Below, piece after piece: positions 8,913 through 29,597 of a stretch of 64,000 bases of DNA. The notes under the pieces are model-generated. The model worked only from the letters and a program-made list of their open reading frames with translations, searched no databases and was not told the origin of the DNA. The position numbers and the translations under genes were made by a program. Origin of the DNA: Pyxidicoccus parkwaysis (GTDB lineage: Bacteria > Myxococcota > Myxococcia > Myxococcales > Myxococcaceae); NCBI RefSeq assembly GCF_017301735.1, contig NZ_CP071090.1, forward strand, positions 11,577,001 through 11,641,000, written 5' to 3'. The number at the start of each line of letters is the position of its first letter. Position 1 is the stretch's first letter.

Positions 8913-8915
8913 GTG

Positions 8916-10886: not shown

Positions 10887-10967
10887 AGAGCAGGGCAGGC
10901 GTGGAGCTCGCCACGCGCCGCCACTCCGGGCAACCGCGCGCTGCCCTTGCTCAGCGCGAGTTGAAAC

Positions 10968-10989
10968 AGGCGGCAGCTACGTGCCGCCT
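10968..10989. terminator. Hairpin terminator between convergent genes
   Basis: Perfect 8-bp arms AGGCGGCA and TGCCGCCT enclose a 6-nt loop. It lies 6 bp past the oxidoreductase stop and about 80 bp past the kinase stop. On the minus strand a CTGTTTCAAC tail follows. Confidence 0.6.
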
Positions 10990-10994
10990 TCGCT

Positions 10995-12620: not shown

Positions 12621-12658
12621 TGAGCGCAGGGTATCCAGGAACGAGGTGATGCGCTGCC

Positions 12659-14422
12659 TCACGGCACCGGCACCGCAATGGGATTCGTATACGACCACCG
12701 GTCGATGACGGCCTCCGAGCCCAGCGAGCCGTTGAGGTTCCATCCCCATCCGTACAGCGAACCATCCTGGCGCAGCGCGAGCACGTGCGTGGCGCCCATG
12801 CCCATCGTTGCAACGGGGTTCACCTCGGTGGCGACGGGCGTGGGCTCGGCGCGGTCGGTCTTGTCACCGACACAGAGCTGTCCATTGCCGTTCTGCCCCC
12901 ACGACACCAGCGTGCCATCCACCCGCACCGCGAAGCTGAAGTTGCCGTTGGCGAACACCGCGCGCGCATCCGTGAGGCCCTTCACCTTCACCGGCGTCGC
13001 GCTCTGGTCCCCCACGCTGGGCGCGCCCGCGCCGAGCTGTCCGCTGGCATCCAGACCCCACGCCGACACCGAGCCATCCGCGTGCAGCGCGAGGAGGTGG
13101 TCCCGGCCATTCGCCAGGTCCACCACGTGCTCCAGCTCCGGCACCCGCACCGGAGCCGGGTGTCCCGCCGTGTCCGCGCTCCCCGAGCCCAGGTTGCCAT
13201 AGCTGTTGCGGCCCCAGACCCAGACAGTGCCGTCAGCCTTCAGCGCCGCCGAGTGCTGCGAGCCACCCACCACCTTCACCACGTCCGTCAGCCCCTGCAC
13301 CGTCACCGGGTAGTCCCGCGACTCGAGGGTGCCGTCGCCGAGCTGCCCGTCGGCGTTGTTGCCGAACGCGCGCACCGTGCCGTCCTCCATCAACACCAGC
13401 GCATGCCGGTACCCGAGCGCCACCGCCACCGCCCCTTCCAGTCCCGGCACGCGCGAGGGCTCGCGGCGCAGGGTGACGTCCGGCGTGTGCGGCTCGCCCG
13501 GCGCGGGAGGCGTGCCCAGCCCGAGCTGCCCGTCCGCGTTCTCACCCCACGTCCACACCGTCCCATCCGAGCGGAGCGCCACCGAGAAGTTCTGGTTGAA
13601 GGCGATGGCGGCCACGCCCTCCAGCCCGGGTACGAGCCGCGGCTGCTTCTGGTCCGCCGTCACCGCTGCGCCCAGGCCGAGCTGCCCCCGGTTGTTGCGG
13701 CCCCACGCGTGGACGCGCCCGTCGCGCAGCAGCCCGCTGTGCAGCGCGCCCGCCGTGGCCAGCCCTCCGAAGTGGAAGGCCACGGTGCTCTCGCCCACGT
13801 TGCCGTATGCATCCCGGGCACGCAGGACGAGCGCGTTGGGCCCCGGCTTCGGCGTCAGCTCGAACACCAGCGCGCCGGCCTCGTCCGGCTTCGCCTGCAC
13901 CGTCTGCTCCTCGCCGCCGTTGAGCACGTAGGCGACGGACACCACGCGCCGGTCATCCGTCACGCGCGCGTCCACCGACACCCGGCGCACGCCGAACGCC
14001 TGGTTCGCCACCGGCGACAGCACCTGTACCCGCGGCGCCGTCGTGTCCGGCGTGTGGCGCAGGCGCAGCGTCCGCGAGTCACGCACGCCCGTCGCATCCT
14101 CCGCCTCCAGCCGCACTACGCTCTCGCCCGGGGGCAGCACGAGGTCCACGGTGAACGTGTAGTGGCCCGGCTGCGTCTCCGTCACCGTGGCCGCTCGCGC
14201 GTCGCCGTCATCCACCCGCGCCGTCAGTGACGCCAGCCCGGCCGCCGTGCCCACCGTGCCGGACAGCCGCACCGCGGGCTCGTCGAACGACGCCCCCGTC
14301 TCCGGAGTCAGCACCTGGATGGACGGCGGTGCGGGCACACCTTGCACGGACGCGACGTCCGAGCCGCAGGCAGCAAGAAGCCACAGCGCGAGCAGCGCCG
14401 GGACAGGGCGGAAGCACTTCAT
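12659..14422 (-). CDS. RCC1-repeat beta-propeller lipoprotein
   Basis: 587 residues. Lipoprotein signal MKCFRPVPALLALWLLAACG (Cys19). Residues about 35-220 form two Ig-like beta domains (for example VRLSGTVGTAAGLASLTARVDDG, then RVSVDARVTDDRRVVSVAYVLNG). From about 225 to the end there are roughly seven RCC1 blades with the signature G.V..WG.N..GQLG (HAWGRNNRGQLGLG, WTWGENADGQLGLG, RAFGNNADGQLGDG, WVWGRNSYGNLGSG and others). Such propellers are protein-interaction scaffolds; here the protein is anchored in the envelope. It sits upstream of the di-haem lipoprotein with a few bases of overlap or a short gap depending on that gene's start, suggesting one operon. Confidence 0.88.
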   Translation of the reverse strand: MKCFRPVPALLALWLLAACGSDVASVQGVPAPPSIQVLTPETGASFDEPAVRLSGTVGTAAGLASLTARVDDGDARAATVTETQPGHYTFTVDLVLPPGESVVRLEAEDATGVRDSRTLRLRHTPDTTAPRVQVLSPVANQAFGVRRVSVDARVTDDRRVVSVAYVLNGGEEQTVQAKPDEAGALVFELTPKPGPNALVLRARDAYGNVGESTVAFHFGGLATAGALHSGLLRDGRVHAWGRNNRGQLGLGAAVTADQKQPRLVPGLEGVAAIAFNQNFSVALRSDGTVWTWGENADGQLGLGTPPAPGEPHTPDVTLRREPSRVPGLEGAVAVALGYRHALVLMEDGTVRAFGNNADGQLGDGTLESRDYPVTVQGLTDVVKVVGGSQHSAALKADGTVWVWGRNSYGNLGSGSADTAGHPAPVRVPELEHVVDLANGRDHLLALHADGSVSAWGLDASGQLGAGAPSVGDQSATPVKVKGLTDARAVFANGNFSFAVRVDGTLVSWGQNGNGQLCVGDKTDRAEPTPVATEVNPVATMGMGATHVLALRQDGSLYGWGWNLNGSLGSEAVIDRWSYTNPIAVPVP

Positions 14423-14622
14423 GTGGGGGACTCCCGAGGGAAATGAGATTGATTTGCAGAATCAGGCAGGCGCCCGTCTCATACCGCCCGGGTGAGGGGC
14501 AGGCAAGACGGGTGGCGTCCGCTGGCTGTGCTTTTCCACTCGGGAATCAGGTGCTACCCGGTTACCGGGAGGCACTGGAGCGCCTGGGCGGCTCCGCGCA
14601 TCCCGGTACCGTTTGTCGCGTG

Positions 14623-15120
14623 CTACGCCTTCGGCTTGTCGCCGCCGACGTTGCCGCTCGCGCCCACCTTGATGCGCTTGGGCTGCACCTCGGGCTTCTT
14701 GGGCAGCGTGAGGTTCAGCACGCCGTCCTTCAGGTCCGCGGCGATGTGCTCCGAGTCCACGCCCTCCGGCAGGGTGAAGGCGCGGCTGAACGAGCCGAAG
14801 CTGCGCTCGAAGGCGAAGTAGCGCTCGTTCTCCTCGCGCTTCTCGGACTCACGCTTGCCGCTGACGACCAGGCGGTCGCCGGTCAGCGAGATTTCCAGGT
14901 CCTTCTCCTGCACGCCCGGCAGGTCGGCCTTGAAGATGAACGCGTCCTTCGTCTCCTTCACCTCGAAGGCGGGGACGAAGCTGGGGACGGCGCCGCGACC
15001 TCCGCCCAGCAATTGGGTCATCGCTTCGAACGGGTCCCAGCCCATCAATTCCTGCATCTGGGAGAACGGGTCCCGCTCGCGGCGGGAAATGCTGCCTTCG
15101 CGACGGGTGATGTCGGCCAT
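14623..15120 (-). CDS. Small heat-shock protein Hsp20
   Basis: 165 residues from the ATG at 15120, preceded by GAGGAGG at good spacing. The alpha-crystallin domain spans about residues 48-140: FEVKETKDAFIFKADLPGV, DLEISLTGDRLVVSGKRE, then the conserved A-x-x-x-DGVLNLTLPK motif. The C-terminal tail contains the RIKV-type I-x-V element that docks between subunits. It is an ATP-independent holdase that binds unfolding proteins. M. xanthus has related small Hsps (SP21/HspA type) induced by stress and in spores. The upstream leader contains mutually exclusive hairpins (15148-15176), so heat or repressor control is plausible. Confidence 0.93.
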   Translation of the reverse strand: MADITRREGSISRRERDPFSQMQELMGWDPFEAMTQLLGGGRGAVPSFVPAFEVKETKDAFIFKADLPGVQEKDLEISLTGDRLVVSGKRESEKREENERYFAFERSFGSFSRAFTLPEGVDSEHIAADLKDGVLNLTLPKKPEVQPKRIKVGASGNVGGDKPKA

Positions 15121-15147
15121 GACGAATCCTCCTCTGACTCCAGTTGA

Positions 15148-15176
15148 GGGGTGGGTGGCGTCACCCCGGCGCCACC
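15148..15176 (-). promoter_or_regulatory. Alternative hairpins / inverted repeat upstream of hsp20
   Basis: GGTGGCG (15154-15160) and CGCCACC (15170-15176) form a 7-N9-7 inverted repeat; GGGGTG (15148-15153) and CACCCC (15162-15167) form a competing one. The element sits 28-56 bp upstream of the ATG. The N9 spacing recalls CIRCE geometry, but the sequence is not CIRCE. The rest of this 345-bp divergent gap, to 15465, shows no gene. Confidence 0.4.
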
Positions 15177-15465
15177 TCGCCCTGAGAGGACCGTAAAGCA
15201 GCGCGTCGGCGCCGCAAGGCAGGGCACGGGCGGGCGACACGTGGAATGGCTCCCCGCGCGAGAACCTCCTCGTTGGACGAGCGGCCTGCCCACGCGACAC
15301 TCGATTGCACGTGGGGAGCGGCCCCCAAGGTACTTTCCGTCCGGGTGCGCTGCTGTCCCTCTGTGCGATTGTCGGCCACTGGTCGCTGCAGAGGCCTTAT
15401 GTACGGCGTTCTCTTTCATCTTCACGGAATCGCTCTAGGGTCGGCACTCGTTGCCAGGGGAAGCC

Positions 15466-15843
15466 ATGCCAGAGGTGCTCGTCGTCGATGACAGCAAGGT
15501 GATGCGCGACATGGTCGTCGCATGCCTGCGCCCCTATCCGGGCCTCACCTTCACCCACGCGTCCAGTGGGCTGGAGGCCATCGAGCGCCTGTCGCTTCAG
15601 CCGTACGACCTGCTCGTCCTCGACCTCAACATGCCGGATATCGGAGGCATCGAAGTCGTGGAGTTCGTGCGGGGACAGGACCGGCTCCGGAACCTGCCCA
15701 TCATCATCGTCACCACGCGTGGGGACGAGGCCTCGCGCGCCCGGGCGCTGGCGGTGGGTGCCAACCGCTTCATGACGAAGCCCTTCACTCCAGATGCCAT
15801 CCTCGGCGAGGCGCGGGCCCTGCTGGAGGAGAAGCGCGGGTGA
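15466..15843 (+). CDS. cheY: CheY-type response regulator, first gene of Che7-like operon
   Basis: 125 residues; the ATG at 15466 follows GGGGAAG. A single receiver with EVLVVDDSKVMRD, phosphoacceptor Asp53 in LLVLDLNMPDIGG and the conserved Lys in FMTKPFTPD. As the only free receiver in this operon it is the expected phosphate acceptor for the CheA encoded next. It overlaps cheA by GTGA, indicating translational coupling. No output domain; the target is unknown. Confidence 0.9.
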   Translation: MPEVLVVDDSKVMRDMVVACLRPYPGLTFTHASSGLEAIERLSLQPYDLLVLDLNMPDIGGIEVVEFVRGQDRLRNLPIIIVTTRGDEASRARALAVGANRFMTKPFTPDAILGEARALLEEKRG

Positions 15844-17912
15844 CCGGCTCGGTGGACCTCGCGGACTTCCTTCCGGCCTACCTGGCGGAGGCGGAGGAAT
15901 TGCTCGGCGCGGCCCACCGGCACCTGCTCGCCGTGGAGGCCAGCGTGCGGCGGGGGCTCGCCCACCCGCGCGCCGTGCGCGAGCTGTTCCGCGCGCTGCA
16001 CACCATCAAGGGCCTGTCCGCCATGGTGGACGTGGAGCCCATCGTCTCCATCGCCCACTGGATGGAGACGTCGCTGCGCCTCGCCGACCGCGCCGGGGGC
16101 CGGCTCCCCGAGGCCAGCGTGGAGCCCCTCATGGAGGGGCTGCGAGAAATCGAGGGGCGCGTGCGGCAGCTCGCCGCCGGCAAGCAGGCCGCGCCCGTGC
16201 CCGCGGGCCTGCTGGAGCGCCTGGAGGCGCTGGAGACGGCCGCGTCGGGCACCGGGCCCACGAAGCCCGCGTCCGCCGCACTGGATTTGGACGCGGCGCT
16301 GTCCTCCCGCCTGTCCACCGCGGAGCGGGAGCAGCTCACCGCCGGGGCAGCTTCTGGGAAGCGCGCGGTGCGGCTGGACTTCGTGCCGAGCGCCGAGCGC
16401 GCCGCCAGCGGCATCACCATCAACAGCGTGCGCGAGCGCGTGGCGAAGCTGGCGGAGACCGTCAAGGTGCTGCCGCTCTCCGGGCCCGCCGCGGGCGGAA
16501 GCTCGCTGACCTTCGCGCTGCTCCTGCTCACCGACGCGGGGGACGACGCGCTGCTGGAGGCCGCGGGAGGCCCGCCCGGCTCGGTGCGCTCGCTGGCCTC
16601 CGCGCCCGCCGCACCGGCCCCGGCCCGAGCGCCGTCCGAGCCCGAGCTGGAGGCGGTGGCGTCGCGGGTGGACGACGAGCCCGAGGAGCAGCGGCGGGGC
16701 GGGGGCACCCTGCGGGTGGAGGTGTCCCGGCTGGACGAGGCCATGGAGCGGCTGGCGGCGCTCGTCGTCAACCGCTCGCGGCTCACCCGCGCGGTGGCGG
16801 CGCTGACGGCCGCGGGCGCGCCCACACGTGAGCTCACCGCCATCCTCCAGGAGAACGGGCGCCAGCTGCGCGACATGCGCGCGGCCATCATCCGCCTGCG
16901 CATGGTGAAGGTGGCGGACGTGCTGGAGCGGCTGCCCCTGCTGGTGCGCGGCCTGCGCCGCAGCACGGGCAAGCAGGTACGGCTGGAGCTGGAGGTGGGC
17001 GACGCGGAGCTGGACAAGGCCGTGGCGGACCGGCTCCTGCCCGCGCTGGTGCACCTGGTGCGCAACGCGGTGGACCATGCGCTGGAATCGCCCGAGGAGC
17101 GCCTCGCGGCCGGCAAGCCCGAGGAGGGCGTGGTGCGCCTCATCACCCACGGCGCCGCCAGCGGGCTGCTCGAGCTGTGCGTCATCGACGACGGGCGCGG
17201 CGTGGACGCGCGGGCGGTGGCCGCGCGCGCGGGCGTGCCCATCCCCACGACACAGGATGCGCTGCTGGAGGTGCTCTGCCGCCCCGGCTTCTCCACCCGT
17301 GACGCCGCCGACGCGACGAGCGGCCGCGGCATGGGCATGGACATCGTCCGCCGCATCACCGTGGACCAGCTCGGCGGCGAGCTGCGGCTGGAGACGAAGC
17401 CCGGCGCCGGCACCACCTTCCGCCTGCGCGTGCCGCTGACGATTACGCTGCTGGACGCGCTCGTCTTCGAGTGCGCCGGCCTGCGCTACGCGGTGGCGGT
17501 CGGCTCGGTGGAGGAGCTCATCGACGTGGACCCGGCGAAGCTGGTGCGGCCCGCGGGCGCCAGCGGCGTGGTGCTCGTGGAGCGGCGGGGCAGCGCGGTG
17601 CCGGTGCTGTCACTGGAGCGGCTGCTGGGGCGCGAGGGCCCGGACGGGCGCAATGGCGCGGGCGTGAAGGCGCTCATCGTCCGCCAGCGCGGCGAGCCGG
17701 TGGCCTTCGCGGTGGACCGGCTGCTGGGTCAGCAGGAAATCGTGCTGCGCACGCTGGAGGACCCGCTGGTGCGCGTGCCCGGCGTGGCCGGGGCGACGGA
17801 CCTGGGGGATGGCCAGCCCACGCTGGTGTTGGACCTGGCCGCACTGGGCGCGGCCCGGAGCGGCAACTCGAGGCGGCGCGAGTCCGTCCCGGGAAGGGAG
17901 CGCGCGACATGA
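15840..17912 (+). CDS. cheA: Chemosensory histidine kinase CheA (Che7-like)
   Basis: 690 residues from the GTG overlapping the cheY stop. P1 HPt domain with phosphorylated His54 in RALHTIKGLSAM; a divergent middle segment in place of a recognisable P2; a dimerisation region (about 300-370, RLDEAMERLAALVVNRSRLTR). The P4 HATPase has N box HLVRNAVDHALE, G1 DDGRGVD and G2 TSGRGMGMDIV. The P5 CheW-like domain occupies about 540-690. Unlike the CheA at 39205-41376 it carries no fused receiver. It forms the kinase core with the CheW and soluble MCP encoded downstream. Confidence 0.94.
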   Translation: MTGSVDLADFLPAYLAEAEELLGAAHRHLLAVEASVRRGLAHPRAVRELFRALHTIKGLSAMVDVEPIVSIAHWMETSLRLADRAGGRLPEASVEPLMEGLREIEGRVRQLAAGKQAAPVPAGLLERLEALETAASGTGPTKPASAALDLDAALSSRLSTAEREQLTAGAASGKRAVRLDFVPSAERAASGITINSVRERVAKLAETVKVLPLSGPAAGGSSLTFALLLLTDAGDDALLEAAGGPPGSVRSLASAPAAPAPARAPSEPELEAVASRVDDEPEEQRRGGGTLRVEVSRLDEAMERLAALVVNRSRLTRAVAALTAAGAPTRELTAILQENGRQLRDMRAAIIRLRMVKVADVLERLPLLVRGLRRSTGKQVRLELEVGDAELDKAVADRLLPALVHLVRNAVDHALESPEERLAAGKPEEGVVRLITHGAASGLLELCVIDDGRGVDARAVAARAGVPIPTTQDALLEVLCRPGFSTRDAADATSGRGMGMDIVRRITVDQLGGELRLETKPGAGTTFRLRVPLTITLLDALVFECAGLRYAVAVGSVEELIDVDPAKLVRPAGASGVVLVERRGSAVPVLSLERLLGREGPDGRNGAGVKALIVRQRGEPVAFAVDRLLGQQEIVLRTLEDPLVRVPGVAGATDLGDGQPTLVLDLAALGAARSGNSRRRESVPGRERAT

Positions 17913-18355
17913 GCGTGCTGCACGTGGTGTTCAAGGTGGACGGGGCCGAGTACGCGCTGCCCGCGGCGGACGTGCTGCAGATGGAGAGCTACACCGGTGC
18001 CACGCCGGTGCCGGGCGCTCCGTCGCACGTGGCCGGGCTGGTGCAGGTGCGCGGCCGCGTCATTCCCGTGGTGGACGCGCGGGCGCGCTTCGGGCTGCCG
18101 GCCATCCAGCGCTCGCTGGACTCGCGCGTGGTGGTGGGCCAGCTCGGGCAGCGCACGGTGGGGCTGCTCGTGGACAGCGCCCGCGAGGTGCTGAAGCTGG
18201 ACCCGGCACAGGTGAAGCCGCCCCCTCCGCTGGTGATGGAGGGCGCGCGCGGATTCGTGAAGGCCGTGGCGCAGGTGGGGCCGCGGTTGGTGATGCTCAT
18301 CGATTTCCCCCGGGTCATCGGGGAGGAGACGCCGGATGGCGACGGACAACGGTAG
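17909..18355 (+). CDS. cheW: CheW coupling protein (Che7-like)
   Basis: 148 residues; the ATG overlaps the cheA stop (ATGA). It has the single CheW SH3-like fold: FKVDGAEYALPAADVLQM, GLVQVRGRVIPVVDARARFGL, RTVGLLVDSAREVLKL. It couples CheA to the receptor encoded next, whose start lies 20 bp inside this gene. Confidence 0.93.
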   Translation: MSVLHVVFKVDGAEYALPAADVLQMESYTGATPVPGAPSHVAGLVQVRGRVIPVVDARARFGLPAIQRSLDSRVVVGQLGQRTVGLLVDSAREVLKLDPAQVKPPPPLVMEGARGFVKAVAQVGPRLVMLIDFPRVIGEETPDGDGQR

Positions 18356-20885
18356 CGGAGCCCTCGCGCTGGACGACGCGCGCACCCTCGCGGAGAGCGC
18401 GTCGCGCAGCGTGCAGGAGGGCGCCAGCATGGTGCAGGCGGTGGAGGCCCTGGCGACGCGGCTGGCGGCGAGCGGGAACGAGCAGGCCGCCGCCTCCGAG
18501 CAGGTGCGCGCCTCCATCGAGTCCATCGCCGCCTACGTGGAGGAGACGGGCCTGTCGGTGCACGAGCTCCTGCGCTCCCAGCGCACGGTGAGTGACTCCG
18601 CGCGCGGCCTCCAGCAGGAGGCAGAGAGCACCGCGGGCGCGCTGCAGGAGGTGAATGCCTCCGTGGCCGGCGTGCGCAAGGACGCCGGGCACCTGGCCGC
18701 CTCGGCGGACGCCACCGCCGCCACGGTGGAGCAGGTGTCGCGCTCGGTGAAGGGTGTGAGCGCCAACGCGGAGGAGCTGGCCGCCTCCAGCGAGGAGCTG
18801 CTGGCGTCGATGACGGAGATGAACGCCACCGTGGCGGACCTCGTCGCGCGCAACCAGTCCAGCGCCGCCGCCACGGAAGAGGTCGCCGCCACCGCCGAGG
18901 AGATGGCCAAGGGCATTGCCCGCCTGGCCACGGACTCGCAGGGGGTGGGCGAGCGCATGTCGTCGATGTCCAACGTGGTGGTGGGCATTGGCCGCGTGCT
19001 GGGCGAGGTGGCCCGTGACGCCCTCAGCATGGCGTCCAGCGTGGAGGAGACGGCGAGCACCACGGAGGAGCTGGCGCGCAGCGTGCGCGGCGTGGCGGAG
19101 AATGCGCGGGTGATGGAGACGCACGCCGCCTCCACCGCGTCCACCGTGGAGGAGGTCGCCGCCAGCGTGGAGGAGGTGGCCGCCACCGCGGAGAAGAACG
19201 CCGCCGTGGTGGACGCCAACGCGGCCACGATTGAGCAGCTCGCCCGCTCCGCGCAGCAGGTGGCGAAGGCGGCGGAGAGCATCAACACCCTGGCGGCCGG
19301 CAGCGCCTCCGCGTCCACGCAGCTGGAGACGTCCACGCGCCGGGTGGCGCAGATGATGGAGGAGGCCCGCGCCACCGCCGAGCGCGTGGGCACCACCGCG
19401 CGCGAGGGCGGCGCCACCTTGACGCGCTCCATCGCCGGCTTCGGCCGCATCCGCCAGTCCATCGTCGAGTCCTCCGGCGTCATGAAGGAGATGGGCAAGC
19501 GCGCGGAGGAGATTGGCGACATCGTCCAGACCATCAACCTCATCGCGGACCGCACCAACCTCCTGTCCCTCAACGCCAGCATCGAGGCGGCGCGCGCGGG
19601 CGAGCACGGCCGCGGCTTCGCGGTGGTGGCGGAGGAGATTCGCGCGTTGGCGGACCGGGCGGCGGCGGCCAGCGCGGACGTGGCCAAAATCGTCCGGGGC
19701 CTCCAGACGACGGCGCGCGAGGCGGCCAGCGCCACGGTGGAGGGCGCGCGCGCGGCGGACGAAGGCGCGGCCCTGGCGTCCGACGCGGAGCGGGCGCTGA
19801 CCACCATCCTCAAGGGCGTGGACGACCTGGGGCAGAACGTGCGCGAGGTGTCGCGCGCGTCCGGCGAGCAGGTGCAAGCGGTGCAGTCCCTCACCCAGGC
19901 CACGGCGCGGGTGAGCGAGCAGGGCCGCGTCATCACCACCTCGGCATCGGAGCAGGCGCAGGCGGCGCAGTCGCTGGCCCAGGGCGGCACGGAGATGCGG
20001 CGCATGGCCCGCCAGACGACGCAGGCCACGCAGGACCAGGCGCGCGCGCTGCGCGACGCGGTGCGCTCCAACGGGCAACTGGCGGAGGTGTCGGTGAAGG
20101 TGTCCCGCGCGGTGCAGGAGCAGGCCGTCGGCGCCGGGGAGCTGGCCAAGGCCGCCTCGCAGATGCGGCAACTGGTGCAGGCGGTGAGCGGGGCGGTGGG
20201 GGCGCAGAGCAAGGAGGTGGCGGGCGTGGGCACCCTGTCGCAGGAGGTGGCGACGGCCACCCAGCGCACGCTGCTGGGGCTGGCCGAGCAGGCCAAGGCC
20301 GCCGCCGAGGTGACGCGGGCCATGGAGGAGACGCGCAAGCAGGTGGCCCAGTCCGCGCGCGGCATGTCCGAGCAGGCCCGCGCCCTCAAGCAGGGCGAGG
20401 TGGCCAGCCGGCAGGTGGCGAAGCTCGCGGCCGACGTGACGCGGGCCACCGACGAGCAGGCGCAGGCGCTCACCGGGCTGGTGAAGGGCGCGGACGAGGT
20501 GCGGCGCGTGGCGAAGGCGACGGCGCGCGCGCTGGACGAGCAGACGGAGGCGCTGTCCTCCGTCGCCGCGTCCGCCACCCGTCAGGCCACCGGCGTGGCC
20601 TCCGTGGCGCGCGCCAGCACGGAGGCCACCACGGTGACGGAGGGGCTGGCCAAGAGCGTGGAGGAGATGCGCCTGAGGGCCCGCGACATCGTCACCACCA
20701 CCGCGCAGCAGACGCGCACCACCGCCGCCACCGCCGCCGAGGTGCGCGAGGTGGCCGGGCGGCTGGCGCAGCTCACGCGCCTCCAGGGCGAGCAGGTGGA
20801 GAGCCTCTCGCGGCTGACAGGCCTGCTCGGCGGCGCGCGCAACATCGAGTCAGGGGCCACGCGGTCCCGGGAGAAGCAGGCGTGA
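18336..20885 (+). CDS. mcp: Soluble methyl-accepting protein with very long coiled coil
   Basis: 849 residues with no transmembrane segment and no recognisable sensor domain. The highly conserved signalling tip (ADRTNLLSLNASIEAARAGE, then [17 protein letters not shown]) lies near residue 403, the middle of the chain. The flanking 400-residue arms are heptad-rich with repeated SVEEVAATAE-type segments. The protein is therefore predicted to fold as one antiparallel coiled coil, much longer than ordinary MCP signalling domains. It overlaps cheW by 20 bp and the HEAT gene by GTGA. Signal input probably comes through partner proteins, plausibly the HEAT protein; in M. xanthus Mcp7 is reported, as I remember, to work with Cpc7. 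Confidence 0.88.
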   Translation: MATDNGSGALALDDARTLAESASRSVQEGASMVQAVEALATRLAASGNEQAAASEQVRASIESIAAYVEETGLSVHELLRSQRTVSDSARGLQQEAESTAGALQEVNASVAGVRKDAGHLAASADATAATVEQVSRSVKGVSANAEELAASSEELLASMTEMNATVADLVARNQSSAAATEEVAATAEEMAKGIARLATDSQGVGERMSSMSNVVVGIGRVLGEVARDALSMASSVEETASTTEELARSVRGVAENARVMETHAASTASTVEEVAASVEEVAATAEKNAAVVDANAATIEQLARSAQQVAKAAESINTLAAGSASASTQLETSTRRVAQMMEEARATAERVGTTAREGGATLTRSIAGFGRIRQSIVESSGVMKEMGKRAEEIGDIVQTINLIADRTNLLSLNASIEAARAGEHGRGFAVVAEEIRALADRAAAASADVAKIVRGLQTTAREAASATVEGARAADEGAALASDAERALTTILKGVDDLGQNVREVSRASGEQVQAVQSLTQATARVSEQGRVITTSASEQAQAAQSLAQGGTEMRRMARQTTQATQDQARALRDAVRSNGQLAEVSVKVSRAVQEQAVGAGELAKAASQMRQLVQAVSGAVGAQSKEVAGVGTLSQEVATATQRTLLGLAEQAKAAAEVTRAMEETRKQVAQSARGMSEQARALKQGEVASRQVAKLAADVTRATDEQAQALTGLVKGADEVRRVAKATARALDEQTEALSSVAASATRQATGVASVARASTEATTVTEGLAKSVEEMRLRARDIVTTTAQQTRTTAATAAEVREVAGRLAQLTRLQGEQVESLSRLTGLLGGARNIESGATRSREKQA

Positions 20886-23251
20886 CGGCATCCTCTTCGG
20901 CCCAGGGCCATCCCCTCTCCCTGTCCGCGGATGACCGCGCGCAGGTGGAGGCGGTGGAGCAGCTCGCCCGGCGCGGCTCCGGCAGCCTCGACACGTTGGT
21001 GGCCGGCCTGGACGCGCCGAGCTGGGCGGTGCGCCGCGCCGTGGTGGGCGCGCTCGCGCGGCTGGGCAGCCCCGCCGTGACGCCCCTGCGCGACGTGCTC
21101 AGCCACCGGCGCGACAGCGAGGCGCGCCTGGCCGCCGCGGTGGAGGCGCTGGTGGCCTCCTCGGGCGACGTGGAGGGGTCGCTGGAGCCGCTCGCGGAGG
21201 ACTCGAACCCGGCCGTTGTCTGCGACGTGGCCCAGGTGCTGGGCCGCCGCCGCAGCCGCCGCTCGGTGCCGCTGCTGGCCCGGCTCACCGTCCACCCGGA
21301 CGACAACGTGGCCGTGGCGTCCATTGAGGCCCTGGGGCGCATTGGCGGCGGCGCGGCGGTGGACACGCTGCTGGCGGCGCTGGGCAGCGGCAACTTCTTC
21401 CGCATCTTCCCGGCCATCGACGTGCTGGGGCGCTGCGGGGACCCCATCGTCGTGCCCGCGCTGCTGGGCCTGCTGTCGGACCCCTTCTACGCGCTGGAGG
21501 CGACGCGCGCGCTGGGCCGCACCGGCCAGGAGGCGGCGGTGCCCGCGCTGGTGGGCCTGTTGCGCCGGGGCAACGACGCGCTGGTGCGCGGGGCCGCGGT
21601 GGCGCTGGTGGACATCCACGAGGCGCAGGTGCAGCGCTTCGGCGGCGCGCGCGCGGTGCAGGGCGCGCTGCGCGGGGACTCGGACGTGGCGATGCTGGGC
21701 CGGCGGCTGTCGCAGGCCCTCAACGGCGCGGACTCGGCGGAGAAGGCCGCCCTCTCGCGGCTGCTCGGCTGGGTGGGCGGGCCGGACGCGGCGTCGGGCC
21801 TCCTGAAGCTGCTGGACGGGCCGGACCCGTCGGTGGCGCGCGCGGCGGCCGGCGCCCTGGCGGAATTGGGCTCGGACGCGGACGCCCAGATTCTGCGCGC
21901 CCTGCGCGACGGGGACAGCGCCCGCCGCCGCGTGCTGCTGCCCCTGGTGGGGCGCCGGGCGGCGTCGGTGCCGGACGTGCTGGCGTGCCTGGAGGACCGG
22001 GACGCGGCGGTGCGCGCGCTGGCGGCGGACACGCTGTCGCGCATCGGCGACCCGGCCGCGGTGCCGGCCCTCTTCATGCGACTGGTGGACGATGACCCGC
22101 GCGTGGTGCAGGCCACCGTGGGGGCCATCCAGTCGCTGGGCAGCGAGGAGACGGAGCGCATGGCGCTGGAGGCGGCGCGCTCGCCGGACGGGCGCCTGCG
22201 CCGCGCGGCGCTGCGCATCATCGCCTACTTCGGCTACCCGCGCGGGCTGGACGTGCTGCTCCAGGCCATGAGGGACCCGGACGAGCGGCTGCGCGACGCG
22301 GCCATCTTCGGCCTGCCCTTCATCGAGGACCCGCGCGCGGTGGACGCGCTCCTCACCGCCGCGGCGCACGAGTCCGAGCGCACGCGCGCGGCGGCCATGC
22401 GCGCGCTGGGGCAGACGGAGAAGGAGGCGCGCATCACCTCCACGCTGCTGGGGGGCCTCAACGACAGGGACCCGTGGGTGCGCTACTACGCGTGCCAGTC
22501 CCTGGGGAAGCTGAACGAGGAGGCCGCCGCGGACGCGATTGTCGCGCTGGCGGACGACGACGCGGGCCAGGTGCGCGTGGCGGTGGTGGACGCGCTGGCG
22601 CACATGCACACGGAAGGGGCCATGACCGCGCTGCGGCGCGCGGCCACCAGCGCGGACGCGGACGTGCGCCGCGCGGCGCTGCTGGGCCTGGGGGTGGCCC
22701 GCCGTCCGGATGCGCTGCCGGTGCTGCTGGAGGCGGTGGGCTCGGAGGACGCGGCCACGCGGCTCGTCGCCCTCTCCGCCGTGGCGGAGTACGACGCGCC
22801 GGAGACGCTGCCCGCGCTCCTGCGCGCCGCCGGTGACAGGGACGACAGCGTGCGCAGCGCGGCGGTGGGCTTCCTCGCCACGCGCACCGGGATGCCGGCC
22901 ACGCAGGCCCTGGTGACGCTGCTGGGGGACGTGACGCTGCGCGAGCGGGTGGTGAGCGCGCTGGCGCTGCCCATCGACGGCCGGCTGCCGGGGCTGCTCA
23001 CCGCGCTGGAGGCGGCGGACGAGGTGACGGCGCCGCTGCTGGTGGCCGCGCTGGCCCGCATGCGCCGGGCGGACGCGCGCGCCGCGCTGCTCCAGTGCCT
23101 GGTGTCCGCGAGCCCCGTGGGCCGGCGCGCCGCGGCTCCGGCCGTGGCGGCGCTGGGCACCGTGGAGGCGCGCGAGGCGCTGGAGCACGCCTCCACGCAC
23201 GACGACGACGCGGAAGTGCGGCGCGCCTGCCTGCTGGCGCTGGGCCGGTGA
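20882..23251 (+). CDS. cpc7: HEAT-repeat protein (Cpc7-like) in chemosensory operon
   Basis: 789 residues made almost wholly of HEAT/PBS-lyase repeats of about 31 residues, for example AVRRAVVGALARLGSPAVTPL, VAVASIEALGRIGGGAAVDTL and AVRALAADTLSRIGDPAAVPAL. There is no catalytic motif or membrane segment. Such solenoids bind proteins; similarity to phycobilin lyase repeats explains the name Cpc7 used for the gene in the M. xanthus Che7 cluster. Its position between the MCP and cheR genes, with GTGA coupling, marks it as part of the signalling machine. I infer that it connects the receptor to the desaturase encoded at the end of the operon. Confidence 0.85.
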   Translation: MTASSSAQGHPLSLSADDRAQVEAVEQLARRGSGSLDTLVAGLDAPSWAVRRAVVGALARLGSPAVTPLRDVLSHRRDSEARLAAAVEALVASSGDVEGSLEPLAEDSNPAVVCDVAQVLGRRRSRRSVPLLARLTVHPDDNVAVASIEALGRIGGGAAVDTLLAALGSGNFFRIFPAIDVLGRCGDPIVVPALLGLLSDPFYALEATRALGRTGQEAAVPALVGLLRRGNDALVRGAAVALVDIHEAQVQRFGGARAVQGALRGDSDVAMLGRRLSQALNGADSAEKAALSRLLGWVGGPDAASGLLKLLDGPDPSVARAAAGALAELGSDADAQILRALRDGDSARRRVLLPLVGRRAASVPDVLACLEDRDAAVRALAADTLSRIGDPAAVPALFMRLVDDDPRVVQATVGAIQSLGSEETERMALEAARSPDGRLRRAALRIIAYFGYPRGLDVLLQAMRDPDERLRDAAIFGLPFIEDPRAVDALLTAAAHESERTRAAAMRALGQTEKEARITSTLLGGLNDRDPWVRYYACQSLGKLNEEAAADAIVALADDDAGQVRVAVVDALAHMHTEGAMTALRRAATSADADVRRAALLGLGVARRPDALPVLLEAVGSEDAATRLVALSAVAEYDAPETLPALLRAAGDRDDSVRSAAVGFLATRTGMPATQALVTLLGDVTLRERVVSALALPIDGRLPGLLTALEAADEVTAPLLVAALARMRRADARAALLQCLVSASPVGRRAAAPAVAALGTVEAREALEHASTHDDDAEVRRACLLALGR

Positions 23252-23260
23252 CGTGACGCC

Positions 23261-24082
23261 ATGGCCTCGCTTCCCATGTCGCCGCAGGTATTCTCCATCC
23301 TGTCGGCGCTGATTGAGCAGCGCGCCGGCCTGCACTACGCGCCGGAGGACCGCGAGCTGCTCCAGGACAAGGTGTCCTCGCGCGCGGAGGAGGCGGGCTT
23401 CGACTCGCTCCTCGACTACTACTACTACCTCCGCTACGACCCGGCCGGCTCGGAGGCGCTGGACGCGCTGGTGGACTCGCTGCTCGTCCACGAGACGTAC
23501 TTCTTCCGCGAGGCGCTGCCGCTGTCGGTGCTGGCGGAGGACGTGCTCGCCCCCGCCGTCCACGCGGGCAGGCGCCCCCGCGTGTGGTGTGCCGCGTGCT
23601 CCACCGGCGAGGAGCCCCTCACGCTGGCGATGATGCTGGCGGACCGCGGCGTCCTCTCCGGCGTGGAGCTGGTGGCCAGCGACTTGAGCACCCGCGCGCT
23701 GGAGCGTGCGCGCGCCGGCGAGCACAACCTGCGCTCCATGCGCGCGCTGCCGCCGGGCGTGGAGGGGCGCTGGCTGGAGGTGCATGACGGGCGCCCGCGC
23801 GTGAAGCAGGAGCTGGTGGACGCGGTGGACTGGCGCCGCGTCAACCTGGTGGACGCGGCGATGGTGGCGGCGCTGGGCACCTTCGATGCCATCCTCTGCC
23901 GCAACGTGCTCATCTACTTCCAGGACGAGACGGCCCTGCGCGTGGTGGAGTCGCTGACGCGCGCGCTCGTGCCCGGCGGCAACCTGCTGGTGGGCACCTC
24001 CGAGTCGCTGATGCGCTTCGGCACCGCGCTGTCCTGCGAGGAGCGGCGCGGCGCCTTCTTCTACACCCGGGAGGGTGCATGA
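23261..24082 (+). CDS. cheR: CheR receptor methyltransferase (Che7-like)
   Basis: 273 residues. The N-terminal CheR helical domain includes LVDSLLVHETYFFREALPL. The S-adenosylmethionine-binding fold has VWCAACSTGEEPLTLAMMLAD and FDAILCRNVLIYFQDE. It methylates glutamates on the receptor. There is no TPR extension, unlike the CheR at 43686-45395. It begins 9 bp after the HEAT gene and overlaps cheB by ATGA. Confidence 0.94.
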   Translation: MASLPMSPQVFSILSALIEQRAGLHYAPEDRELLQDKVSSRAEEAGFDSLLDYYYYLRYDPAGSEALDALVDSLLVHETYFFREALPLSVLAEDVLAPAVHAGRRPRVWCAACSTGEEPLTLAMMLADRGVLSGVELVASDLSTRALERARAGEHNLRSMRALPPGVEGRWLEVHDGRPRVKQELVDAVDWRRVNLVDAAMVAALGTFDAILCRNVLIYFQDETALRVVESLTRALVPGGNLLVGTSESLMRFGTALSCEERRGAFFYTREGA

Positions 24083-25128
24083 CGGCCCCCGCTCCCATCC
24101 GCGTGCTGGTGGTGGACGACTCCGCCTTCGCGCGCAAGGTGCTCAAGCAGGTGCTCTCCAACGCGGAAGGCCTGGAGGTGGTGGGCACCGCGCGAGACGG
24201 CCTGGACGCGCTGGAGAAGGTGGCCGAGCTGGCCCCCGACGTCCTCACCCTCGATTTGGTGATGCCCGGCCTGGACGGGCTGGGTGTGCTGCGCGCCCTC
24301 GCCTCCATCCCCTCCGCGCCGCGCGTGGTGGTGGTGAGCAGCGCGGGCGAGGAGAGCGAATTGGCCGTGTCCGCGCTCCAGGCCGGCGCGGTGGAGTTGG
24401 TGAACAAGCCCACCGCGCTCGCCACGGACCGGCTCTACGAGCTGGGCGCGGAGTTGGTGGAGGCGGTGCGCACGGCGGCCCGCGCGGTGCCCCACGCGGC
24501 GCCGGACGTGGCCGTGGCCACGGCGCCGGGGGGGGCCCTGGCGGGAATGCCCGCGCCGGCGCGCAAGCTGGTGGTGGTGGGCACGTCCACCGGAGGCCCG
24601 CAGGCCCTCACGAGACTCTTGACAGCGCTGCCCGCGGACTTCCCCGCGCCCATGGCGCTCGCGCTGCACATCCCCGTGGGCTACACGCTGGCGGTGGCGA
24701 AGCGGCTGGACGCGCAGTGCTCGCTGGAGGTGCTGGAGGCGGAGGACGGCGTGGAGCTGCGCCCCGGGCGCGTGGTGCTGGCGCGCGCCGGGCACCACCT
24801 CAAGGTGGAGCGCCACGGCGCGGTGAGCGTGGCGCGGCTGGACAGGCACCCTTTGCGCATGCCGCACCACCCCTCGGTGGACGTCCTCTTCGAGAGCGCC
24901 GCGAAGGCCTGGGGCGCGGACGCGGTGGGCCTGGTGCTCACCGGCATGGGCGAGGACGGACGCGAAGGCTCGCGCGCCATCCGCGCCGCGGGCGGCACCG
25001 TCCTCACCGAGGCCGAGTCGTCCTGCGTGGTGTACGGCATGCCCCGCGCCGTGGTGGAGGCGGGGCTCGCCACCGCCTCCGCCCCCCTGGAGGGCCTGGT
25101 GCCGTTGCTCAATCGCTACGTCCGCTGA
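24079..25128 (+). CDS. cheB: CheB receptor methylesterase/deamidase (Che7-like)
   Basis: 349 residues. The N-terminal receiver has VDDSAFARKVLKQ and phosphoacceptor Asp in LTLDLVMPGLDG. The C-terminal esterase carries the catalytic Ser in VGTSTGGPQAL, His in ALHIPVGY and Asp in LTGMGEDGREG. Phosphorylation of the receiver by CheA should relieve inhibition of the esterase. It is the last overlapping che gene; the desaturase follows after 132 bp. Confidence 0.94.
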   Translation: MTAPAPIRVLVVDDSAFARKVLKQVLSNAEGLEVVGTARDGLDALEKVAELAPDVLTLDLVMPGLDGLGVLRALASIPSAPRVVVVSSAGEESELAVSALQAGAVELVNKPTALATDRLYELGAELVEAVRTAARAVPHAAPDVAVATAPGGALAGMPAPARKLVVVGTSTGGPQALTRLLTALPADFPAPMALALHIPVGYTLAVAKRLDAQCSLEVLEAEDGVELRPGRVVLARAGHHLKVERHGAVSVARLDRHPLRMPHHPSVDVLFESAAKAWGADAVGLVLTGMGEDGREGSRAIRAAGGTVLTEAESSCVVYGMPRAVVEAGLATASAPLEGLVPLLNRYVR

Positions 25129-25260
25129 AACGCTCGGAAACATTCCGCGCCGGGTGGGAATGCGGCGCCGACGGGCCTACATGCCGGCAGTCCAGGCAAC
25201 CCCTCCCTCGAGTCCACGCGAAGATTGGGTAATGGACACAAGGTGGGGCAGACTCCGCGC

Positions 25261-26226
25261 ATGCTTCGATACTCCGCTGACCGCCGGACGCTGCTGTGGT
25301 GCCTGGCGATGCCCGTGGTGGCCCTGTCGATGTACGCGGCCCCCTCGCTGATTCCCTATCTCTGCCCCTTGGCTTGCTATCTGGCATTGTCGGCGGGCGT
25401 CATCGCGCACAATCACAACCACTGCCCGACCTTCCGCAACCGGAAGATGAACGAGGCCATGGGCATGTGGCTGTCGCTCTTCTACGGCTACCCCACCTTC
25501 GTGTGGATTCCGACGCACAACCTCAACCACCACAAGTTCGTGAACAAGGCGGGCGACGCGACGATTACGTGGCGCTACTCCAAGAAGCACAACTTCCTGG
25601 TGGCCTTCGTCTACCCCTTCGTCTCCTCGTACTGGCAGCAGGAGCCCACCAAGGCCTTCATCGACAAGGCCCGTGAGCGCAACCCGGCGCTGTTCCGCCA
25701 GATTGTCCTCCAGTACGTCATCTGGGGCGGCACGCACGCGGCGCTGCTCGCGCTGGCCATGGTGCTGCACGGCGTCAGCGCCGGCGCCCGCATCTGGGTC
25801 TTCGCCTTCTTCATCCCGGCGATGTTCTCGCTGTGGACCATCATGTTCTTCAACTACATCCAGCACGTCCACGCGGACCCCTGGAGCGACCACGACCACA
25901 GCCGCAGCTTCACCGGCAAGGCCATCAACTTCTTCCTCTTCAACAACGGCCTCCACGCGGTGCACCACGAGACGCCGGGCCTCCACTGGAGCCTGCTGCC
26001 CGAGGCGCACGCGAAGATTGCGGCCTCCGTCCACCCGGACCTCAAGCCCGTCAGCTTCTTCGGCTGGTGCTTCCGCGTGTACGTGCTGGCGCCCCTGTTC
26101 CCCAGCTTCGGCACGAAGCAGGTGGGCCGCGCGCCCTACGAGCCGCCCACCGGCGAGACGGTCAACGTGGCCTTCGGCGACGAACTGCAGGCCGTGGACT
26201 CGGGCATCAACGCCGCCCGCGTCTGA
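25261..26226 (+). CDS. des7: Membrane fatty-acid desaturase (Des7-like)
   Basis: About 321 residues from the ATG at 25261 (a GTG at 25243 is also possible). Three histidine boxes of the di-iron membrane desaturases are present: HNHNH after the first hydrophobic pair, HNLNHHK, and HAVHHE near residue 240. Hydrophobic segments lie around residues 12-60, 150-180 and 195-215. It would insert a double bond into membrane fatty acyl chains. An inverted repeat CATTCC-N10-GGAATG (25141-25162) lies in the 132-bp gap before it, so it may have its own promoter. The context matches M. xanthus Des7 of the Che7 cluster, which suggests that the chemosensory system controls lipid modification. A strong hairpin follows. 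Confidence 0.88.
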   Translation: MLRYSADRRTLLWCLAMPVVALSMYAAPSLIPYLCPLACYLALSAGVIAHNHNHCPTFRNRKMNEAMGMWLSLFYGYPTFVWIPTHNLNHHKFVNKAGDATITWRYSKKHNFLVAFVYPFVSSYWQQEPTKAFIDKARERNPALFRQIVLQYVIWGGTHAALLALAMVLHGVSAGARIWVFAFFIPAMFSLWTIMFFNYIQHVHADPWSDHDHSRSFTGKAINFFLFNNGLHAVHHETPGLHWSLLPEAHAKIAASVHPDLKPVSFFGWCFRVYVLAPLFPSFGTKQVGRAPYEPPTGETVNVAFGDELQAVDSGINAARV

Positions 26227-26486: not shown

Positions 26487-27617
26487 ATGATGACGGCTTC
26501 AGGACGCATCCGTCCGCCGCCCGCCCTGGTGACTGCCGCGCCGCGCGTGCTGTGGGTGGGCCCTGCTGGGGAGCCGTGGCTGGCGGTGACGCGGGCCCTG
26601 CGTCTGGCGGGCGGTGAGTCCCATCTCGTGTCCACGCTGGACGCCGCGAGCTCGGAAGTCCCGCGCCTCAAGCCCTCGCTGGTGCTGGTGCACTGGCGGC
26701 TCGTGTCGGAAGCGCGCGGCCCCGCGCTGAGCGCGCTGCGCACGCGCTCCGGCCACGCGCCGGTGGCCCTGGTGGTGGAGGCGGACACCCCGGCCGAGGT
26801 GCTGGAGGCGGGCGAGTCCGAGGGCGTGGAGGACTGCCTCCTGCTGCCCCTGCGCTTCTCCGAGTTGCGCGCCCGGCTGGCGGTCCTCACCGGGGAGCCG
26901 CGGGCGGCGGCGCCGGTGCGCCCGGTGGAGCGCTTCAGCCCCCGCGTGGTGCTGATGGCGGGCGCCAGCGGCCCGCGCGCGTGGGGCGGGCTGGGCGCGC
27001 TCTTGGAGGCGTGCGGCCACCACCTCGTCTACAGCGCCAGCGTGGAGGGCGCGGCGGTGCGGCTGGCGGACGGCGCCGTGGTGCCGCACCTGGTGCTCGT
27101 CTCCGGCGAGGGGCCGCTGGCGGCGCTGCGGCTGTTGTCCACGCTGCGCTCGCGGGCGGTGCTGGAGGGCGTGCCGGCGCTCACCGTGGCGGTGGGTCCG
27201 GGGACGCGGGCTCCGGGGCTGGCGGCGCTGCTGCCGCGCATCGACGCGCTGCTGGGCCGGGACTCGGGCTCGCTGCACGTGGAGGAGCGGGTGCCCTTCT
27301 GCTGCCCGGTGGAGTTCGGCGAGGGCGGCTCGCGCGAGTCGGAGTGGACGTCCGGCTTCTCCGTCGCGCTGAGCCCCGGCGGCCTCATCGTCCGCACGCT
27401 GGTGCCGCTGCGCCCGGGGACGGCGGTGAAGCTGCGCATCCACCTGCCCACCACGCGCGAGCGGCTGGACACGCCCGGCGTGGTGGCCTGGGCCAACCCC
27501 TTCGCGCCGCGCGGCGGCCTGTCCTTCCCGTACGGCATGGGCGTACGCTTCCTCGGCATGGGCCCGCCGCGCCTCATGCACCTGCGGCAACTCTGCCAGC
27601 CGGTGGCCTCACTCTAG
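26487..27617 (+). CDS. PilZ-domain protein with two degenerate receiver-like domains
   Basis: 376 residues from the ATG at 26487, which has GGAGG 6 nt upstream. Two successive Rossmann-like domains (about 12-130 and 150-255) have receiver topology but lack the acidic pocket and phospho-Asp, so phosphorylation is unlikely. The C-terminal 110 residues look like a PilZ domain (FSVALSPGGLIVRTLVPLRPGT, then PGVVAWANPF and GMGVRFLGM) of the type common in myxobacteria. The usual R-x3-R cyclic-di-GMP motif is not clearly present, so binding is uncertain. It lies 30 bp ahead of a receiver gene on the same strand, probably one operon. Confidence 0.7.
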   Translation: MMTASGRIRPPPALVTAAPRVLWVGPAGEPWLAVTRALRLAGGESHLVSTLDAASSEVPRLKPSLVLVHWRLVSEARGPALSALRTRSGHAPVALVVEADTPAEVLEAGESEGVEDCLLLPLRFSELRARLAVLTGEPRAAAPVRPVERFSPRVVLMAGASGPRAWGGLGALLEACGHHLVYSASVEGAAVRLADGAVVPHLVLVSGEGPLAALRLLSTLRSRAVLEGVPALTVAVGPGTRAPGLAALLPRIDALLGRDSGSLHVEERVPFCCPVEFGEGGSRESEWTSGFSVALSPGGLIVRTLVPLRPGTAVKLRIHLPTTRERLDTPGVVAWANPFAPRGGLSFPYGMGVRFLGMGPPRLMHLRQLCQPVASL

Positions 27618-27647
27618 TCGCGCGTGTTTCTTGCCCGGGGGGGCGCC

Positions 27648-28016
27648 ATGCGACGCAAGAAAGTCCTGCTGGTGGATGACTCGGCCACGGTGTTGCTGTT
27701 GCACCGGGGCATGCTGATGGAGCTGGGCTACGAGGCCGTCACCGCGCGCGACGGACTGGAGGCCCTGGCGCGGGCGGAGATGGAGCGGCCGGACCTGGTC
27801 TTCCTGGACGTCGTCATGCCGCACCTGGACGGCCTGGAGACGTGCCGGGCGCTGCGCACGCGCGAGCCCACGCGCCACACGCCCATCATCCTCTGCAGCA
27901 CCCGCGCCGAGCCGCGCAGCGTGCAGGCCGGCTTCGACAGCGGCTGCTCCGAGTACCTCGCCAAGCCCTTCGACGGCGCGGAGCTCCGCGCCCTCCTGCA
28001 CCGCTACCTGGGCTGA
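27648..28016 (+). CDS. Single-domain response regulator
   Basis: 122 residues from the ATG at 27648, after a run of G. A single receiver: VLLVDDSATVLLLHRGML, phosphoacceptor Asp in LVFLDVVMPHLDGL, and Lys in YLAKPFDGAEL. It lies 30 bp downstream of the PilZ gene and 17 bp from the convergent sensor kinase, which is a candidate partner by proximity. Confidence 0.87.
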   Translation: MRRKKVLLVDDSATVLLLHRGMLMELGYEAVTARDGLEALARAEMERPDLVFLDVVMPHLDGLETCRALRTREPTRHTPIILCSTRAEPRSVQAGFDSGCSEYLAKPFDGAELRALLHRYLG

Positions 28017-28033: not shown

Positions 28034-29533
28034 CTACAGGGACGGAGGGGGCGGCGGGCCATTGGGCCGCGTCGGCTGAGAGCGGCGCGGCAGCGTCACG
28101 GTGAAGGCAGTGCCCTCGCCCTCGCTGGAGGAGACCTCAATCGTGCCGCCGTGGGCCTGGACGATTTCCCGGACGATGTAGAGCCCCAGCCCGTAGCTCA
28201 TCTTCAGCGTGCGGGCCGTCTGCGGTCCCCGGCGGAAGGGCTCGAAGAGGTGGGGCAGCAGGTTGTCCGGAATGGGGCGGCCGGCGTTGCGCACCTCCAG
28301 CACCACCTTGTTGCGCACGCCGCGCACGGCCAGGTGCACCGGCGTCTCCGCCGGGCTGTACTTCAGCGCGTTCTCCACCAGGTTGGACGCCACCTGTCCC
28401 AGCCGGTCCGGGTCCCACGTGCCCTGCGTGTTGCCCTTGTGCTCCACCTCGACGAGGCGCTGCGGGAAGGCCACGCGGAACTCGTGCGCCACCTTCGCGG
28501 CCAAATCCTTCAGGTCCATGGAGCGCGGCTCAATCGCCACGCCGCCCACCAGCCGCGTGCGGGTGAAGTCCAGCAAGAGGCGGGTGAGCCGTTCAATCCG
28601 CACCGCCGCCGTGGCGATGCGCTTGCTGGTGTGCTTCGCCTCCTCCGCGGTGCCGCTCTCCGCGAGCACGCGGGACCAGTTCATGATGGCGCCCAGCGGG
28701 CTGCGGATGTCATGGCTGACGATGCCCATGAGCTGTTCCTGGAACTCCGAGTGCCGGCGCGACTCCTCTTCCGCCCACTTGCGCTGGGTGATGTCGCGGC
28801 TGATGCCGAAGAGGCCGGACACCTTTCCCTCCGAGTCCCGCAGCACGCCCTTGGTGGACAGCCACACGCGCGGGCCCTCGGCGCCCGGCTGGGCGTCCTC
28901 GTAGGTGACGGTGCGGCCGAAGGCGTACACCTCCCTGTCGTTGGCGGCGTTGGCCTTCGCGACTTCTGGCGCGAAGAGCTCGTGGTCCGTCTTCCCGAGC
29001 ATGCCCTCCACCGTGTAGCCCACCGCCTTCGCGCCCGCGGAGTTGATGAGCTGGTAACGGCCCTGCAGGTCCTTGGTGTAGACGGCGTCCGTCGTCCCCT
29101 CGAGGATGGAGCGGAACGTCTCGCTGGTGCGCCGGAGCTCCTCGCGCGCGCGGCGCTCGCCGGTGATGTCCCGGCAGTGCACCAGCAGGCCGCTCTCCAT
29201 CGGGCGCACGCGGACGTCGAAGCACAAGTCCCGCTCCGGCCAGCCGTGCTCGAAGCGCGCGGCGGCCTGCTCGGTGGCGGGCTCCTCGAAGCGCACGTGG
29301 CGGCGCAAATCCAACAGCGAGGGGCACGCGCGGCGCAGGTCGTCCCCGGTACCGCAGCGGCCCTCCGTCAGCTCCGCCATGCGGGGGCTGACGTAGAGGA
29401 AGCGCCACTCGGCGTCGAGGAGGAAGAAGGCGTCAGGCAGGCCCTCCAGGAGCGCGAGGAGCGGTACGGCGGGCGCCTCGGAAGGGGGCGCGGCCGGAGG
29501 GCGCTGGCGCTTCTTGGCGGGGGTGGGAGCCAT
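28034..29533 (-). CDS. Cytoplasmic PAS-PAS histidine kinase
   Basis: 499 residues from the ATG at 29533 (a TTG lies upstream at 29569). A basic Pro/Ala-rich N-terminus is followed by PAS 1 (about 25-135, DAFFLLDAEWRFLYVSPRMA), PAS 2 (about 145-265, TTDAVYTKDLQGRYQLINSA) with PAC (VSGLFGISRDITQRK), then HisKA with His in GIVSHDIRSPLGAI. The HATPase has N box LVENALKYSPAE and G2 SYGLGLYIVREIV. No membrane segment. It has no receiver of its own; the receiver gene at 27648 is convergent and adjacent. Confidence 0.88.
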   Translation of the reverse strand: MAPTPAKKRQRPPAAPPSEAPAVPLLALLEGLPDAFFLLDAEWRFLYVSPRMAELTEGRCGTGDDLRRACPSLLDLRRHVRFEEPATEQAAARFEHGWPERDLCFDVRVRPMESGLLVHCRDITGERRAREELRRTSETFRSILEGTTDAVYTKDLQGRYQLINSAGAKAVGYTVEGMLGKTDHELFAPEVAKANAANDREVYAFGRTVTYEDAQPGAEGPRVWLSTKGVLRDSEGKVSGLFGISRDITQRKWAEEESRRHSEFQEQLMGIVSHDIRSPLGAIMNWSRVLAESGTAEEAKHTSKRIATAAVRIERLTRLLLDFTRTRLVGGVAIEPRSMDLKDLAAKVAHEFRVAFPQRLVEVEHKGNTQGTWDPDRLGQVASNLVENALKYSPAETPVHLAVRGVRNKVVLEVRNAGRPIPDNLLPHLFEPFRRGPQTARTLKMSYGLGLYIVREIVQAHGGTIEVSSSEGEGTAFTVTLPRRSQPTRPNGPPPPPSL

Positions 29534-29597
29534 GCGTCGTCGGGGTGCGGGTGGGCCAGAGGCCCTCAAGGGGTGAACACGGGGTGGAGGCGCGCTC

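Follow-up and report, generated by a model that had tools for sequence, protein, structure and literature searches.

A Che7-type chemosensory locus of Pyxidicoccus parkwaysis with a HEAT-repeat protein as candidate output and a separable desaturase neighbour

Introduction

In Pyxidicoccus parkwaysis a gene for a membrane desaturase follows a compact set of chemosensory genes. Does this array signal to lipid unsaturation, or is the desaturase a separable neighbour? The window analysed here is a stretch of 64,000 nucleotides (contig NZ_CP071090.1, positions 11,577,001 to 11,641,000) from a 13.2 Mb genome that is assembled in a single contig, and the closest named relatives of its host are Pyxidicoccus caerfyrddinensis and P. 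fallax. In Myxococcus xanthus che7 corresponds to MXAN_6965-6958, che6 lies nearby, and the operon is taken to end with the desaturase gene (PMC4320627). An interaction of Mcp7 with CheW7 and a role in development are described in the literature, and CheY7 of M. xanthus has been linked to temperature-stress resistance (PMC9040617).

Gene content and identity of the locus

Gene calls in the window combine the open reading frame listing, translation and Pfam, and gave the following features (window coordinates):

15466..15843, plus strand: cheY7, single-domain response regulator of 125 aa (Pfam Response_reg, 1e-25)
15840..17912, plus strand: cheA7, GTG start, 690 aa, with Hpt, dimerisation, ATPase and CheW-like domains
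17909..18355, plus strand: cheW7, coupling protein of 148 aa, 88% identical to M. xanthus
18336..20885, plus strand: mcp7, predicted cytoplasmic, sensor-less receptor of 849 aa, coiled-coil hairpin
20882..23251, plus strand: gene of the HEAT-repeat protein (Cpc7 ortholog), GTG start, 789 aa, 49 predicted helices
23261..24082, plus strand: cheR7, methyltransferase without TPR, 273 aa
24079..25128, plus strand: cheB7, receiver-methylesterase, 349 aa
25261..26226, plus strand: desaturase gene (Des7 ortholog), membrane fatty-acid desaturase (Pfam FA_desaturase, PF00487, 1.1e-28)
26490..27617, plus strand: PilZ-domain protein, at the position of MXAN_6957, part of the desaturase-PilZ-response regulator (des-PilZ-RR) block
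27624..28016, plus strand: receiver-only response regulator, part of the same block
28034..29569, minus strand: PAS histidine kinase, convergent to this block

A sequence-only reading of this DNA had proposed an overlapping run from cheY to cheB with a desaturase behind it, and all eight open reading frames were found with the named domains. From cheY to the HEAT gene the junctions are overlaps of 4, 4, 20 and 4 bp, followed by a 9-bp gap between the HEAT gene and cheR, a 4-bp overlap of cheR and cheB, and a gap of 132 bp from cheB to the desaturase ATG. The catalytic and phosphorylation motifs are intact in CheY7 (DD8-9/D53), CheA7 (Hpt H54 plus N and G boxes), CheB7 (GTSTGGP, T-MG-DG) and CheR7 (CSTGEEP), and the desaturase carries three histidine boxes (HNHNH at 62, HNLNHH at 98, HAVHH at 244) together with four hydrophobic segments. 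Orthologs of the desaturase from the M. xanthus group align only from the ATG at 25261, which is residue 13 of a longer frame, and we therefore prefer this start over the TTG at 25225.

The same reading had matched the locus to Che7 of M. xanthus with its Cpc7 and Des7, and this assignment holds: locus L013 of M. xanthus AM003 (9627-20307) comprises all eight genes in the same order at 80-89% identity, and the protein lengths agree with the published table. CheY7 is 89% identical to M. xanthus and 98% to Pyxidicoccus, while CheA7 is 80% identical to its M. xanthus ortholog. Since L013 holds all eight genes and the other CheA genes of the host genome share only 31-37% identity with CheA7, the best matches lie in this one cluster and not elsewhere. 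The gene order is kept in dozens of genomes and therefore does not reflect chance. The locus is an ordinary ortholog of the Che7 system known from predatory soil bacteria, here in a Myxococcus/Pyxidicoccus-type host.

Several neighbouring features were recorded as well. An Hsp20 gene (14623-15300) is divergent to cheY7, likewise in several relatives including Hyalangium. A second che cluster of the window (38147-45900; CheB, CheA with receiver, MCP, CheW) has a position that fits che6 of M. xanthus. A Myxococcus Che7 locus is also borne by a record titled Comamonas sp. KCTC 72670 (L023), an organism title that looks wrong.

Distribution of Che7 and the desaturase, and losses of Che7

The operon layout is tempting as a pathway, in which Che7 would act through the HEAT protein on the desaturase and so set membrane unsaturation, with all genes forming one functional operon. 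Two lines speak for this reading: in those genomes of the genus that bear Che7, the desaturase has stayed next to it (Che7 and the desaturase occur together in 22 genomes, side by side in the loci read), and Che7 seems, according to a 2022 paper, to have an effect on membrane composition (PMC9548883). In the 96 genomes of the GTDB family, with desaturase orthologs defined by at least 59% identity, the desaturase and the Che7 HEAT gene occur together in 29, HEAT alone in 18, the desaturase alone in 15 and neither in 34, so that the two are found together more often than expected by chance in a test that takes no account of phylogeny (Fisher p 0.004). However, the desaturase is not tied to Che7 across lineages in the genomes compared. 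All 16 Corallococcus-type genomes (g6) have Che7 only, all six of g3 have the desaturase only, and g8 and g9, two further genera, contribute seven genomes in which both are present but on separate contigs or far apart. Furthermore, the Che-HEAT cassette persists without the desaturase in Corallococcus and in distant loci, likewise in Hyalangium and several metagenome-assembled genomes (MAGs). Where the desaturase ortholog is unlinked, in g3, g8 and g9, it adjoins a CspA-like cold-shock gene (L131, L135, L136 and L137, divergent in L135), which suggests a temperature role for the desaturase. With about 20 other PF00487 proteins in the host genome this enzyme is one of many; a comparison with PDB sequences found no relative.

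The surroundings of cheB point to how the two became neighbours. In Corallococcus, in G036 (g8) and in G043 (g9), cheB abuts a convergent kinase orthologous to that at 28034-29569 of the window, and the des-PilZ-RR block stands between the two in the Myxococcus/Pyxidicoccus genus only. In the simplest history this block was inserted in the genus stem; loss in the other lineages is possible, with more steps needed.

Within the genus, five genomes (G061, G067, G069, G071 and G072; loci L126-L130) keep the desaturase at 86-89% identity along with its downstream neighbours, and in these genomes neither the Che7 HEAT gene nor any CheA above 39% identity to CheA7 was found; three of the five are single-contig assemblies. 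An rpoB tree requires two losses of Che7, as G067 groups with G057 as its sister inside a Pyxidicoccus-like clade and the remaining four make up a clade of their own. Presence of Che7 is ancestral, because Hyalangium (L029) has Che7 with the same upstream genes. The deletions left different traces: in G067 (L127) the scar comprises the terminal 42 nt of cheB along with a cheA fragment of about 50-59 bp, and in the G061-type junction a point about 300 bp before cheY is joined to one about 100 bp before the desaturase. The desaturase has a dN/dS of 0.136 in the clade of four genomes without Che7 versus 0.142 in Che7-bearing relatives, and selection on the enzyme is thus not relaxed.

Two natural deletions have removed Che7 and left the desaturase in place. 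The proposal of signalling to lipid unsaturation therefore finds cassettes without desaturase, desaturases without Che7 and two Che7 deletions beside a desaturase under the same selection set against it, and we regard the one-operon pathway as quite unlikely. Since each partner is found without the other and Che7 was lost twice, the desaturase is a later, separable neighbour and at most an added, non-obligate branch of Che7. The Che7-less Myxococcus and the desaturase-less Corallococcus species provide natural controls for Che7 function.

The region between cheB and the desaturase

Two features of the 132-bp gap bear on how the desaturase might be transcribed:

25225..25254, plus strand: promoter-like element TTGGGT-N18-CAGACT, 6 nt before the desaturase ATG
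25144-25152 and 25163-25171, no strand assigned: inverted repeat of 9 nt, 8 of 9 paired

All 27 genus loci, among them the five that lack Che7, have the N18 spacing and CAnnnT, 6 or 7 nt upstream of the start codon. The first hexamer varies, being xTGnnn generally, ATGGnn in the M. xanthus clade and TTTGGC in L105. The element scores 26 of 30 against a shuffle mean of 0.06, a control that keeps no relatedness and overstates the evidence because the loci share ancestry; its survival across both Che7 deletions is the stronger point. A promoter of the desaturase's own, as predicted from the conserved element, is supported, and we infer from its position that the transcript may be leaderless or nearly so. 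The inverted repeat, which had been put forward as the mark of an extra promoter, is not conserved in the nearest relatives. It is therefore probably incidental in DNA of 70-75% GC and was rejected as a promoter mark, while the extra promoter itself keeps its support from the element.

As an alternative, the desaturase could be co-expressed with Che7 by read-through for development, a regulatory adjacency without protein contact. Its position on the same strand behind a gap of only 132 bp and the order conserved in the genus fit this view, as does the lack of a terminator-like site, a weak scan: sigma-70 and terminator scans of the region between cheB and the desaturase gave no sites and are uninformative at such GC content. 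However, the promoter-like element upstream of the desaturase persists where Che7 was deleted, which makes read-through an improbable explanation of the layout.

Receptor, HEAT protein and associated kinase

Mcp7 shows no hydrophobic segment (maximum 1.08) and hence no transmembrane segments. None of its 849 residues is a proline, and hydrophobic positions recur with a period of 3.5 residues from end to end. The signalling tip, residues 408-434, lies nearly in the exact centre between arms of 407 and 415 residues; most orthologs have arms near 404-409 and 409-419, and in the length variants L027 and L138 both arms are altered. Ten other receptors of the same genome have C-arms of 129-166 residues, so that the C-arm of Mcp7 is about three times the normal size. 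The simplest reading of these features is that Mcp7 would form a single, sensor-less, antiparallel coiled-coil hairpin. An AlphaFold model of low confidence (pLDDT 68) has long helices meeting at the tip and speaks for consistency only. In M. xanthus, Mcp7 belongs to class 40H and forms mobile, subpolar cytoplasmic clusters (PMC3945109). The predicted giant hairpin offers a sharp prediction for cryo-tomography.

What, then, is the output of such an array? Among Che7 loci, which were collected by search with CheA7, the block cheY-cheA-cheW-mcp-HEAT-cheR-cheB recurs in Myxococcus, Pyxidicoccus, Corallococcus and Hyalangium, and in several MAGs labelled Myxococcales, Polyangiaceae, Deltaproteobacteria, Bdellovibrionaceae and Planctomycetota. 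The cross-phylum cases are three MAGs (L037, L040 and L041) for which binning errors are possible, although the tree places their HEAT proteins well apart from Myxococcaceae. Every complete Che7 block examined has the HEAT gene, in L033 placed before cheY. For M. xanthus, binding of CheY7 to the HEAT protein Cpc7 has been reported (PMC11514114). Because Che-HEAT and the desaturase each occur without the other, and Che7 was lost twice beside a retained desaturase, CheY7-HEAT is the constant candidate output of Che7. Foldseek with the HEAT model returned generic eukaryotic HEAT solenoids and artificial alphaRep proteins only, with no functional lead. Two irregular genes were seen in these cassettes: the HEAT gene is apparently split over two frames in G068 (L141, 7925-10290) and G065 (L012, 15037-17399), by frameshift or assembly error. 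In a distant Che7 cassette (L139, 5799-7553) the encoded CheB is longer at its N-terminus by about 240 residues.

Che7 cassettes outside the genus and outside g8/g9 usually have a further gene, encoding a REC-(PAS)-HisKA-HATPase kinase (REC-HK), divergent and directly upstream of the block (for example L016 7880-9541, L031 8057-9499 and L041 8054-9472). This kinase might be the output in most lineages, with the Myxococcus-type Che7 as a reduced form that lost it. It was found in nine Corallococcus-type and ten deeper loci at 484-781 bits versus about 170-220 for other local kinases. Six of these loci had served as seeds for building the model, so that their match is built in; L172/L173 duplicate L032/L031 and were counted once. 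In addition, CheA3 of Rhodospirillum centenum phosphorylates a REC domain of CheS3 (PMC3868531), and this kinase with receiver domains is the closest described analogue of the REC-HK. On the other hand, the weaker candidates in L027, L037 and L038 (306-366 bits) may not be orthologs, the gene is absent at this site in Myxococcus, Pyxidicoccus and Hyalangium, and according to the literature the M. xanthus system still functions. The model gave no match above 300 bits in the host genome (G000); the window's gene at 8913-10886, tried as a CheS3-like REC-HK, encodes a different REC-PAS kinase. We thus treat output through the REC-HK as a tentative possibility, and this recurring kinase as a testable Che7 partner outside Myxococcus.

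Proposed mechanism

We consider it likely that the Che7 array outputs via the HEAT adaptor and that the desaturase is a separate, separable transcription unit and no obligate output. Together with CheW7 and CheA7, the sensor-less long hairpin Mcp7 would assemble into an array that CheR7 and CheB7 tune; CheA7 would phosphorylate CheY7, the details of this phosphoflow being deduced, and the state of CheY7 would control its binding to the HEAT solenoid, the constant output adaptor. The desaturase gene, which came to lie behind cheB in the genus stem, would presumably use its own promoter. A later-arisen link between Che7 and the desaturase in this genus is possible, whatever role the enzyme may have in it.

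Viewed more broadly, Che7 could be an old module of Myxococcota and of MAGs labelled Bdellovibrionota and Planctomycetota, with a giant hairpin receptor (arms of about 407/415 residues, about 60 nm by helix geometry), a fixed HEAT partner and mostly a divergent REC-kinase, to which the desaturase came as a late neighbour in one genus; we see the case for this wider picture as evenly balanced. While the Che7 system itself is already known, what is probably new here, all read from sequence, are the natural losses of Che7, the geometry predicted for the receptor and the candidate association with a REC-kinase.

Comparison with known systems

With FrzCD of M. xanthus, Mcp7 shares the cytoplasmic location without membrane segments. 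However, FrzCD has 417 aa (PMC3945109) compared to 849 in Mcp7, and it binds DNA (PMC12077210). Che3 of R. centenum resembles Che7 as a Che-type system whose output is developmental (cyst development through CheA3-CheS3-CheY3), and a REC-bearing histidine kinase is encoded alongside, a trait shared with the Che7 cassettes found beyond the Myxococcus genus. In contrast, its CheA carries a receiver, the accessible part of PMC3868531 mentions no HEAT protein, and the REC-HK is absent from the Che7 locus of the window. The closest system is Che7 of M. xanthus, with its published protein table (CheY7 125, CheA7 683, CheW7 148, a cytoplasmic Mcp7, CheR7 273 and CheB7 348; PMC3945109). While the two differ by species-level divergence only, and the locus of the window is known here from sequence alone, they share the eight genes and their order, the lengths of CheY (125), CheW (148), CheR (273) and CheB (348/349), the cytoplasmic receptor and the flanking PilZ gene.
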